Made by a program: the position numbers and the translations under genes. 44,722 nucleotides of DNA, from assembly GCA_025358085.1 (NCBI GenBank), contig JANYKT010000185.1, positions 1-44,722 of the forward strand, in the 5' to 3' direction. Shown here in pieces: positions 1,462-30,575 of the stretch. Under the pieces are notes generated by a model. It was not told where the DNA came from. It was given only the letters and a program-made list of their open reading frames with translations, and did no database searches. Every line of letters starts with the position of its first letter. The stretch's first letter is position 1. Source of the stretch: Deltaproteobacteria bacterium. Its GTDB lineage: Bacteria; Myxococcota; Myxococcia; Myxococcales; 40CM-4-68-19.

Positions 1462-2838
<1,377 letters not shown>

Positions 2839-2847
2839 CGGCCCACT

Positions 2848-18862: not shown

Positions 18863-19034
18863 GTTGCCCACGATCCTGCGGCGACTGGTTCATTCCAAAC
18901 ACAGCATGTCGCGCCTCTTCCACTGAGCGGCTCTGAAGCACGGAGCGGCCTGGCGATTGCAGTCCTGCTCGGCGAGTCACTGTTGGCTTTATCCAGGCGC
19001 CAATTGCGGCGTGTCTAAACTCTCGAGGCCACAA

Positions 19035-20219
19035 ATGGTTCCATCGATTCGTCGATTGCAGTCTCTCCGTACGTCTTATCTTGCTGCTCTTTCAGGCTTG
19101 CTGCTCGCTGCCGCGGCCTGTGGAACGGGAGCGCGGCCCACCGCCAATGCCAAAGGGAAAATGGCCTCGGTCCAGACCACTTCGATCCTCGGGACCGCGC
19201 AAGCCTTCGCGGTCCTTGCCGGCTCGACAGTGACCAATACGGGTCTTTCGATTATCAATGACAATGTCGGAGTCAATCCCGGCAGCGCGGTCACCGGATT
19301 CCCGCCCGGCCTCCTGACGGGCGGCACCATCCACATCACAGACAGCGTGACGCTGCAGGCGCAAGGTGACACCACCGCCGCCTACCTGGATCTCGCCGGT
19401 CGACCGTGCGAGTCCGGTCTCACCGGCCAGGACCTCGGCGGCAAGACGCTCAAGGGGGGAGTCTACTGCTTCACCTCGGAGGCCCAGCTGACCGGAACGC
19501 TAGTGCTCGACGCCGAGAACCGCGCCGACGCGCTCTTCATCTTCCAGGTCGCCAGCAAGCTCACGACTGCTTCCGGCGCGTCGGTCCGCCTGATCAACGG
19601 CGCCAGCCCCTGCAACGTGTTCTGGCAGATCGGCAGCTCGGCGACGATCGGGAGCGGCACCGACTTCGTCGGAAACATCCTCGCGCTGACCAGCATCAGC
19701 CTCGGCACCAACGCCTCGCTTGAAGGCCGCGCGCTGGCTCGCAATGCCGCCGTGACGCTGGACTCCAACAAGGTCACCAGCAACATCTGCCAGGACACCA
19801 CCGTCGCCGCCTGCTGCGACGACAGCTCGGTCTGCGGCGGAGCCTGCGTCAACCTTCATAAGGACGCGAACCACTGCGGCACCTGTGGCAAGTCCTGCTC
19901 GGCCAGCGAGATCTGCGCCGGCGGCGCCTGCGAGGCCTGCCCCGCCAGCCGCACCCAGTGCAAGGCTCAGTGCGCCGACCTGACCTCGGATCCCTTCAAC
20001 TGCGGCGCCTGCGGCAACACCTGCGCGGGCAGCCAGACCTGCGTCGCCGGCGTCTGCTCGGATTGCCAGGGGCAGCTTTGCTCCAATCGCTGCGTCGAGA
20101 CGCGGACCGACCGCAACAACTGCGGCGCCTGCGGCAACGCCTGCGCCACCGGACAGTGCTGCCACCAAGGTTCCTGCACCGTGGGAACCGTAGCCTCGGC
20201 GGTCTGCCAGCACCCCTAG
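19035..20219 (+). CDS. DUF3494 (ice-binding-like) exported protein with three Cys-rich C-terminal repeats
   Basis: 394 residues. A basic N-terminus and hydrophobic stretch end at LLAAAAC, so it is exported, possibly as a lipoprotein, although the lipobox is weak. Residues about 45-260 form a DUF3494 beta-solenoid (starting ILGTAQAFAVLAGSTVTNTG and with KGGVYCFTS), the fold of ice-binding proteins and many adhesins. Three repeats follow, each about 35 residues with the core NHCGTCGK, FNCGACGN or NNCGACGN and further Cys pairs, a cysteine-rich type frequent on secreted myxobacterial proteins. Ice binding is not implied; surface binding is more likely. GAGG stands a few bases before the ATG. Confidence 0.85.
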   Translation: MVPSIRRLQSLRTSYLAALSGLLLAAAACGTGARPTANAKGKMASVQTTSILGTAQAFAVLAGSTVTNTGLSIINDNVGVNPGSAVTGFPPGLLTGGTIHITDSVTLQAQGDTTAAYLDLAGRPCESGLTGQDLGGKTLKGGVYCFTSEAQLTGTLVLDAENRADALFIFQVASKLTTASGASVRLINGASPCNVFWQIGSSATIGSGTDFVGNILALTSISLGTNASLEGRALARNAAVTLDSNKVTSNICQDTTVAACCDDSSVCGGACVNLHKDANHCGTCGKSCSASEICAGGACEACPASRTQCKAQCADLTSDPFNCGACGNTCAGSQTCVAGVCSDCQGQLCSNRCVETRTDRNNCGACGNACATGQCCHQGSCTVGTVASAVCQHP

Positions 20220-26245: not shown

Positions 26246-26827
26246 ATGGATCCACTGCTGCGCTTCAAGGAATTGCTTGCAACCGCCCGGCTGAATCCGC
26301 TCATTGCCGAACCAACCGCCATGACGCTCGCGACGGTCGGCGACGACGGCCGGCCGTCCGCCCGCATCGTGCTGTTGAAAGACGTCGATGCAGCCGGATT
26401 CGTCTTCTATACAAACTATCATTCGCGGAAGGGCCGCGAGGTCCTCGCGCATCCGGACGTCGCGCTGGTCTTCCAATGGTTCCCGCTGGAGACGCAGGTG
26501 CGCGTGGAGGGCCGCGCGACGCCGGTGATCGCCGCCGAGGCCGACGCCTACTTCGCCGGCCGCCCTCGCGGCAGCCAGCTGGGAGCCTGGGCTTCGGACC
26601 AGAGCGGCACGCTCGACTCGCGGGCGACGCTGGAGGCGCGCCTCGTTGAAGTGACCGCCCGCTATGAAGGGCTGCCAGTGCCACGGCCGCCGCACTGGTC
26701 GGGCTTTCGCGTCGCCCCTGTGGCTATCGAGTTTTGGAAGAACCGCGTTAGCCGGCTGCACGAGCGCGAGTTGTATTCTCGCACGACTCCTGATCAGCCG
26801 TGGAAGGTCCAGCTGCTCAATCCATGA
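26246..26827 (+). CDS. pdxH: Pyridoxamine 5'-phosphate oxidase
   Basis: 193 residues, slightly short of the usual 200-220 because of a brief N-terminus. It oxidises pyridoxine or pyridoxamine phosphate to PLP with FMN. Family marks are [42 protein letters not shown], the [12 protein letters not shown] motif and the C-terminal [13 protein letters not shown] with WKVQLLNP. The ATG is 12 bases past the dyad and has no clear ribosome site, so the mRNA may be nearly leaderless. Confidence 0.93.
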
Positions 26828-26981
26828 GTGCACTCGCGGCCGTTGCCAGAATGTGGACGTTAAGTATCTGCCGTCTGGAACTCGTCGCGATCCGCACCAT
26901 CAAATCGAGAGATATGCTCGCCGTAGCCGTCACGTGAGCAGCGTTCATGCGCTATCCCGCAAGTGTGCACCGGAGGCTTCC

Positions 26982-28048
26982 ATGAGCAATCCGCCCTCTA
27001 TCACCCCTGACTTGCCGACGTTGTTCGCGCTGTTGGAGCGCTTGCCTGTTGGCGTCGTCCTGCTGGACCACGACGGCCGGGTGCTGCTTTACAACGCCGC
27101 AGAGGAGAGCATTGCGCGGCGCCGCCGCGAGGACATCCTGGGCCGGCTTTTCTTCCAGGACGTTGCTCCCTGTATCCGTGACGCCGGAGTCGGCGACGAA
27201 TTCTTCGGCCGCGTCGGGCGCGAGCAATTCAATATCGAGCGCGAAGTCTCGTTCGCGTTTCCGTTCCGCGACTCGCCAAGACAAGTGAAGGTCAAGCTGG
27301 TGTCGCTCGATGTTGGAGGACGGCCTTACGGCTGCCTGTTCATCGAGGACATCACTGCGCAGCGCGCGTTGGATAGGTTGAAAGACAATCTGTCGGCGCT
27401 TCTGGTGCACGACCTGAAGAACCCGCTTGCGGCGGTGCTGGCCAATCTCGACATGCTGGACCTGCAGCCCAGCGCGCCTGCGGACCCGACAGCCACGACG
27501 CCGCGCGGGCCTCGGCGCGGCGCTTGCAGCGCATGGTGGGGAGCCTGCTCGAGATCGCGCGATTGGAAGACGGTGCGATCCCGCTTCGGCTTTTGCGCAT
27601 CGATCTCCGCCTGCTCGCGGACGCTGCGCTGAGCGGGATGGCGGGTCTGGCCCAGATCAGCTCGGTCAAGATTCGGCAGGCAACCGCCGAGGAGTTCATC
27701 TTTGCGCTCGCGGACGCGGACATCGTGCGGCGCGCGCTCGATAATCTGCTTGATAATGGGTTGCGCTATTCGCCGGCCGGTTCGAGCATCGAAGTCTGGG
27801 CCGAGCCCGGGCCCGCGGCCGGCAAAGTTTCGCTCTGCGTGCGCGACCACGGACCTGGAATCGCCGACTCGATGCGCGAGCGCATCTTCGAAAAATATGG
27901 GCAGGCCGAGCCGGGCGCGCGCAGCGGGAACCAGGGGCTCGGCCTCACCTTCGTGCGGCTCGCGGGAGAGGCCCACGGAGGCGCGGTGACCGTCGAGAGC
28001 CCGGCGACTGGCGGCTGCCTCTTCCGCATCCAACTCCCGGCGGCGTGA
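26982..28048 (+). CDS. PYP-like PAS sensor histidine kinase, interrupted by a one-base frameshift
   Basis: The first part (to about 27487) encodes an N-terminal PAS domain of photoactive-yellow-protein type: YNAAE (Tyr37, Glu41), Arg47 and the DVAPC cysteine Cys64 keep the spacing of PYP Tyr42, Glu46, Arg52 and Cys69, the residues that hold the p-coumaroyl chromophore. QVKVKLVSLDVGG matches the PYP C-terminal strands. The H-box LLVHDLKNPLA has His143. The second part, in a different frame from about 27485, resumes the dimerisation helix (PDSHDAARASARR), N-box DNLLDNGLRYSPAGS, G1 DHGPGIA and G2 GNQGLGLTF. One lost C in the ACCCG at about 27484-27488 explains the break. A CGGAGG box precedes the ATG. 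It is either a sequencing error or a recent mutation; otherwise it would be a soluble light or redox sensor. Confidence 0.82.
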
Positions 28049-28079: not shown

Positions 28080-29474
<1,395 letters not shown>

Positions 29475-29506
29475 TGGGATTCCTTTCGAAAAGACGGTAC
29501 GGGCGC

Positions 29507-29535
29507 TGCATAACGCTTCACGGTCCGAGCGACAA
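29507..29535 (-). promoter_or_regulatory. Candidate sigma-70-type promoter for fumC
   Basis: Read on the minus strand, TTGTCG (29535-29530) and TATGCA (29512-29507) are 17 bases apart; the start of transcription would be about 26 bases before the ATG at 29474. The match to consensus is moderate. Confidence 0.35.
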
Positions 29536-29585
29536 GGCGGGCGCGGTTTACTTGACCGCGCGGCGATCGGCCTTAGCCTGCGCGG

Positions 29586-30575
29586 ATGCTGTGCACCCGG
29601 TGCTCCCATCCGCTTTCGGCGCGCGCCGACCGCTGCCTGCGCTGCTTTGCGCTGAATCCGCAAAACCTGCCCCCGCCGGCGGCGCGCGTCGCTTTTGCCC
29701 TGCCGCGGGCAGCGAGCGCGCCCGGGATGCCGGCTGCTCCGGTCTCCATGTCGATCGCATCAGACCCGCCGCGGGCGTTTTCAAGCTCGATCGATTCCGG
29801 GCCGCCGGTCGCGGTGACGGCTTCGATCGATTCGGACCCGCCGGTGAGATTCTCGAAATCGACCGCGCCCGAGCCGCGCGCAGCGGTGAGGAAGTTCATT
29901 GCGCCCGACCGGCCCGCGGCGGTTTGGACTGCGCCAAGCCCTCGCGTGCACGGGCACTTTTCGGCGGCTTGGGAACCGGTAGCCGGGGTCACCCAGGCGG
30001 CGCCGCCTGGGCCTGCGCGGGAGGCGGATCCACAGGAGGCGGTGACCGACCCGCCCGACTCCACAATTGGTCAAGGGCTTAACTTTCAAGGCCTTAAGGA
30101 TTTCACGCCCCCGGCGACTTCCCCTCTCCGCGCTCCGCTCGCCGCGCGCCTTCTCGCCTGGTCCGTCGACCTCGCGCTCCTCGCGGCGGGCGCCGCCGCC
30201 CACGTCTGGCTCGCGGCTTCGATCATCGGCCCCGCCCGCCTCGCGCCGCACGGCAGCGGCTCCCCCGACTACTGGGTCGACCTCCTGCTCGCTCCGAAGC
30301 TGCTCTTCCCCTGGGCCGCCCTCGCGGCTTGCCTTGCCCTCTCATACTCCTGGCTTTTCGCGACGCTCGGCGGCCGCACTCCAGGCATGGCGCTCGCCCG
30401 CTTGAAGCTCGTCACCGAGAGCGGCGCCCGACCGACTCCACCCAAGGCGCTCACCCGCGCCGCCCTCTCGCTCGTCTCCGCGGCAGGCCTGCTCGGCTTC
30501 GCCCTCGCGCTCTTTGACGACCGCGGCCAGACCCTGCACGACAAGCTGACCCGCACCCGGGTCGTCCCGGAGTAG
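29586..30575 (+). CDS. RDD-domain membrane protein with N-terminal zinc ribbon
   Basis: 329 residues. A CTRC and CLRC pair (residues 3-6 and 17-20) forms a likely zinc ribbon. A Pro/Ser-rich linker of about 130 residues contains several near-copies of [19 protein letters not shown]-like units. The C-terminal RDD domain (about 185-325) has three to four membrane helices ([28 protein letters not shown]) and the conserved Arg-Asp-Asp-type pattern (RLLAW with [18 protein letters not shown]). The function is unknown; RDD proteins are often linked to transport or stress. No ribosome site is evident before the ATG. Confidence 0.82.

Follow-up and report, generated by a model that had tools for sequence, protein, structure and literature searches.

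Members of the photoactive yellow protein (PYP) family are homologues with a conserved Cys69, which usually also carry Tyr42 and Glu46 (PMC9664959), and they are common in Myxococcota (PMC9664959; PMC12826048). PYP domains are also found as the input of histidine kinases. In Ppr of Rhodospirillum (Rhodocista) centenum, a bilin-binding phytochrome domain is located between PYP and kinase (PMC2993699; PDB 1MZU), and 15 cases of N-terminal PYP-kinases with HisKA plus HATPase or with HATPase alone have been described (PMC12826048). How PYP passes on its signal is an open question (PMC12826048).

In the 44,722-nucleotide stretch of a myxobacterial draft genome analyzed here (the window), a gene starting at ATG 26982 combines a PYP-like PAS domain with histidine kinase modules (Table 1). 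As in Ppr, the PYP domain is the input of a histidine kinase, but no phytochrome domain separates the two. By the published description, the gene resembles the N-terminal PYP-HisKA-HATPase proteins, in which PYP is likewise followed directly by the kinase without a phytochrome, except that the window copy is frameshifted. A first-pass annotation had considered the kinase to be unlike bacteriophytochromes; this held, as no phytochrome domain was found, but PYP-HisKA-HATPase proteins are already known. Judged by its sequence, the window domain is a new, divergent PYP-family-like input within this described fusion architecture (PMC12826048).

Table 1. Features of the PYP-like kinase gene and its neighbors (positions in the window)
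Feature	Coordinates	Strand	Remarks
Upstream neighbor, pyridoxamine 5'-phosphate oxidase	26246..26827	+	No evident signaling role
GGAGG ribosome-binding site	26972..26976	+	From sequence; precedes ATG 26982
PYP-like PAS domain, residues 1-130	26982..27371	+	8/9 PYP pocket residues, 15/17 family-conserved residues
Tyr37 codon	27090..27092	+	Equivalent of PYP Tyr42
Glu41 codon	27102..27104	+	Equivalent of PYP Glu46
Arg47 codon	27120..27122	+	Equivalent of PYP Arg52; not diagnostic within the family
Cys64 codon	27171..27173	+	Equivalent of chromophore-binding PYP Cys69, within FFQDVAPC
First half of HisKA (DHp)	27381..27461	+	H-box LVHDLKNP; HisKA match, residues 134-160
Predicted phospho-acceptor His143	27408-27410	+	
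Frameshift interval	27462..27511	+	Stop-free; phase change between 27465 and 27487; corresponds to 18 orthologue residues
Rest of DHp and HATPase_c	27488..28048	+	Other frame, open to its own stop; 39% identical to orthologue
Downstream neighbor, class II fumarase	28080..29663	-	Convergent

The window PAS domain possessed equivalents of Tyr42, Glu46, Phe62, Val66, Ala67, Pro68, Cys69 and Phe96 of the PYP family (Xing et al. 2022, PMC9664959; Dohmen et al. 2025, PMC12826048); those of Phe28, Phe92, Met100 and Trp119 were absent. In the frame of ATG 26982, Tyr37, Glu41, Arg47 and Cys64 reproduced the spacing of PYP Tyr42, Glu46, Arg52 and Cys69 at an offset of minus five, and the motif around Cys64 read exactly as first annotated. 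Two residues to which the annotation had drawn attention proved less telling. Ala45, seen there as a departure from Thr50 of PYP, is indeed present, but Ala is the family consensus at position 50; likewise, Arg47 is present but has little diagnostic weight, as Arg52 is not conserved within the family, in which Leu is the consensus at position 52 (PMC12826048). Up to Cys69, 23 of 47 residues were identical in a gapless alignment with the PYP of H. halophila, whose sequence as used here agrees with the PDB alignments. The best phmmer matches in the PDB were PYPs (E 2.7e-12), followed at E 0.006 by a sensor kinase as the first non-PYP.

Among NCBIfam families, the top match was TIGR02373 photo_yellow (63.8 bits, E 1.5e-17), compared to 22 bits for the generic PAS S-box. 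The cut-off of this equivalog family (143.05 bits) was missed by the window PAS domain and was reached in none of the 147 genomes of the class; the model is reported to recover about 20% of PYPs (PMC9664959). We counted the nine chromophore-pocket residues and the 17 conserved residues defined in PMC12826048. Compared to 8 and 15, respectively, in the window PAS domain, 40 other PYP domains from related genomes had 8 to 9 and 12 to 17, and 10 PAS-kinase domains of the class, retrieved by the same search, had 0 to 4 and 5 to 8. Equivalents of Tyr42 and Glu46 were lacking in all 28 further PAS_4 stretches from the same genome, one of which had a Cys at position 69. The interval between E46 and C69 measured 23 residues in all 45 non-generic alignment rows, window PAS included. 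These results indicated that the PYP-likeness of the predicted domain is far beyond chance.

Structure prediction, which the first-pass annotation had named as a check, yielded a PAS fold but did not separate PYP from DosP. From a single sequence of 168 residues, AlphaFold modeled the domain poorly (pLDDT 49.6). With a 3-row alignment, a PAS fold was obtained (pTM 0.66), which was weak around and after the Cys, i.e., at the pocket side (pLDDT below 50 across model residues 56-86). Since Foldseek matches of this model were a mixture of DosP heme PAS domains and PYPs, and since the pocket side was weak, the model was used for fold class only. Heme PAS domains of the DosP/FixL type are marked by a proximal histidine in the F helix, and LOV domains by the flavin-cysteine motif GxNCRFLQ. 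Both assignments were rejected: the PAS domain has a single histidine, at residue 30, leaving no helix histidine for heme, whereas GxNCRFLQ is absent from the translation and Cys64 lies ten residues after Gly54, not three.

As assembled, the kinase portion is interrupted. Frame 0 remains open from ATG 26982 to 27629 and encodes HisKA until about 27461, but by codon usage the coding path quits this frame at 27465 and resumes at 27487 in another one, which stays open as far as the stop at 28048 and contains HATPase_c (78.5 bits). Translation would end after 216 residues and yield a sensor with only half of the DHp domain. An intact orthologue of 358 residues, whose PAS, H-box, DHp and HATPase share an uninterrupted frame, was found in a second genome, G051 (contig G051:C108, locus L062:7679-8755, minus strand). 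The N-terminal part of the window gene aligned to residues 9-157 of this protein and the C-terminal part to residues 176-351, each with 39% identity. Because both parts align in order to a one-frame gene, the window gene evidently derives from one undivided ancestral gene that has undergone a net shift of frame somewhere from about 27462 to 27511. Programmed frameshifting was dropped as an explanation, since the orthologue is encoded in one frame and the interval contains no slippery run. With its kinase half out of frame, the copy in this assembly has either been inactivated recently or been misassembled. The assembly, in which HisKA and HATPase are split, lends no support to the earlier reading as a working kinase; the end coordinate of that reading, 27487, coincides with the loss of reading frame, although the frameshift itself had gone unmentioned.

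The orthologue keeps Tyr42, Glu46, Thr50, Arg52 and Cys69, has FFRVHGYC where the window PAS domain has FFQDVAPC, and lies among different gene neighbors. Among 195 genomes of the phylum, the kinase was found only in the window's own genome (G000) and in G051 (E limit 1e-15), and no plasmid record matched the PAS domain at E 1e-6. PYP homologues were more widespread: 35 of the 147 genomes in the class had matches to TIGR02373 at E up to 1e-13. None of these exceeded the NCBIfam cut-off, and most scored 75 to 115 bits, compared to 64 bits for the window PAS domain. Both kinase-bearing genomes contain further homologues, three in G000 and two in G051. In G000, those on contigs C84 (115 bits) and C114 (111 bits) are single-domain proteins, and the third, on C198, scored 64 bits. 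The C84 homologue (G000:C84:1401-1727; L001:1402-1857, minus strand reading) has Phe at position 42 and belongs to the Y42F class. On C114 (L012:1827-4160), the single-domain PYP lies on the same strand as an FHA-GAF-class III nucleotidyl cyclase gene and begins about 22 bases past its end; the two may possibly form a light-cyclic nucleotide pair, and no relative of this cyclase was found beside PYPs at the other PYP loci examined. In G051, one PYP (G051:C123; L063:4872-5924) forms a fusion with a V4R domain, a combination described in 2025.

For phylogenetic placement, a tree covering clades A and C of the PYP family was built from clade A references (H. halophila, Indioceanicola and Caballeronia), six plasmid-borne PYPs, the PYPs already described and 27 other PAS domains. 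The plasmid-borne PYPs were assigned to clade C because most of them adjoin diguanylate cyclases. In the final tree, which superseded an earlier one with long-branch intruders, the PYPs of clades A and C formed one group (support 100/99) with the two kinase PAS domains just outside, and PYPs plus kinase PAS domains were split from all other PAS domains (100/97). By AU tests, placement of the kinase pair inside clade A (p 0.22) was not rejected, nor was its nesting with clade C (p 0.08). It is conceivable, albeit unlikely, that the two kinase PAS domains form a stem lineage to the entire PYP family, in which case the p-coumarate pocket would have arisen within the sensory part of a histidine kinase in a myxobacterium, and free-standing PYP would have developed from that domain later. 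If the pair truly branches below clades A and C, this would bear on the origin of the p-coumarate pocket from a generic PAS domain. An interval between C69 and V105 that is longer by two residues was discarded as a mark uniting both kinases, as two other PYPs have it too. The divergent PYP on C198, with SVAQC, grouped with clade C and immediately precedes a GGDEF gene (L013:9602-11250), an arrangement reported from that clade.

With regard to the chromophore, the first-pass annotation had found neither a tyrosine ammonia-lyase (TAL) nor a coumarate ligase (pCL) in the window. No chromophore gene was present near the window kinase; the genome search, however, retrieved a candidate for each on another contig, both below the respective family cut-off. 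Besides HutH (C149), the genome encodes a separate second aromatic ammonia-lyase (C17:15945-17336), whose best family is the BagA/FevW tyrosine ammonia-lyase (440 bits versus a cut-off of 1000) and whose best PDB match is a tyrosine aminomutase. About 2 kb from it, an AMP-ligase (C17:19383-20300) matched best to TIGR02372, the PYP 4-coumarate-CoA ligase; its 138.6 bits were the highest score in the genome, in which no coumarate-CoA ligase exceeded the cut-off of 334.7 bits. Both genes are far from the window kinase and are surrounded by ketosynthase, acyltransferase and transporter-like ORFs (L015, G000:C17:8000-25000), a cluster that we take to be aryl-polyene-like. A literature search on TAL in aryl-polyene clusters returned nothing useful. 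Putatively, this lyase and ligase could supply the chromophore to the PYPs. Since TAL reportedly lies close to at least 10% of PYP genes and pCL to at least 30% (PMC9664959), the lack of such genes nearby is weak evidence. Across the class, aryl-polyene-type ligases (14 genomes) did not co-occur with PYP, only G000 having both. A second aromatic lyase was more common in genomes with PYP than in the others (30/35 versus 44/112 genomes of the class), and within family f6 the counts were 29/33 versus 34/63 (Fisher p 0.001); both comparisons ignore kinship, and these lyases are at most candidate TALs.

On balance, we consider it somewhat probable that the gene specifies, or did so until recently, a small soluble orphan histidine kinase with a p-coumarate-binding PYP-type PAS domain as its only input. 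By analogy with PYP, we infer the following chromophore, light response and signal path. After activation as a thioester, p-coumarate would become linked to Cys64, and Tyr37 and Glu41 would hold its phenolate. Isomerization of the p-coumarate in blue light would be followed by proton release from Glu41; the change would be relayed via a short helix (residues 127-142) into the HisKA/HATPase core and would alter the phosphorylation of an unlinked response regulator. No response regulator was found beside the kinase, the sole receiver-like ORF of the window (1465-2847) being located beside another kinase-like ORF.

It is very improbable that this is an ordinary PAS kinase which converged on a common PAS pattern and gained FFxDVAPC by chance. 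Although Asn43, Asp34, Gly37 and Gly59 are indeed widespread among PAS domains and the mixed Foldseek matches would suit such a domain, profile and phmmer scores ranked PYP far above all other PAS families, in line with the pocket tally and with the grouping in the tree. A chromophore-free PAS domain, in which the conserved Cys senses redox state or electrophiles or the pocket takes another small molecule, is somewhat unlikely, even though a redox-sensing role has been suggested for PYP relatives with altered pockets (PMC9664959). The orthologue, which retains the Cys without the DVAP motif, and the genome, which is without a canonical coumarate ligase, would be consistent with it; Tyr42 and Glu46, the known phenolate holders, are nevertheless kept in both proteins. 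A disulfide switch within the domain is unlikely because Cys64 is the only PAS cysteine common to the orthologue, in which Cys118 is Leu. Between the blue-light and the redox kinase envisaged in the first-pass annotation, residues, profiles and tree favor a PYP-like blue-light input, and a disulfide redox sensor is the less likely of the two.

Quite possibly, though with somewhat less than even probability, the copy in G000 is a decaying pseudogene that inherited the PYP-like sensor and whose kinase function was ended by the frameshift, a scenario compatible with the p-coumarate-binding kinase preferred above. The phase jump is stop-free in a gene whose orthologue is continuous, and such jumps are rare: a scan of about 227 kb of this genome's coding sequence (some of it overlapping) flagged two, i.e., one besides that of the window gene, which argues that the assembly is not generally frameshift-prone. 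However, no second lesion was found, as the frame of the HATPase runs uninterrupted up to its stop and nothing is missing from the PAS domain, and a single indel can be an error in a draft assembly of 217 contigs.

If the preferred reading of a p-coumarate-binding PYP-kinase applies, a short soluble PYP-HisKA-HATPase protein without phytochrome would be a simple system for the direct measurement of light-controlled kinase activity, for which the intact G051 protein is the one suited. Elsewhere in the window, a secreted-looking ORF with a cysteine-rich C-terminal tail was present at 18957-20219, and a similar N-terminal half was found in L013:16628-17506.
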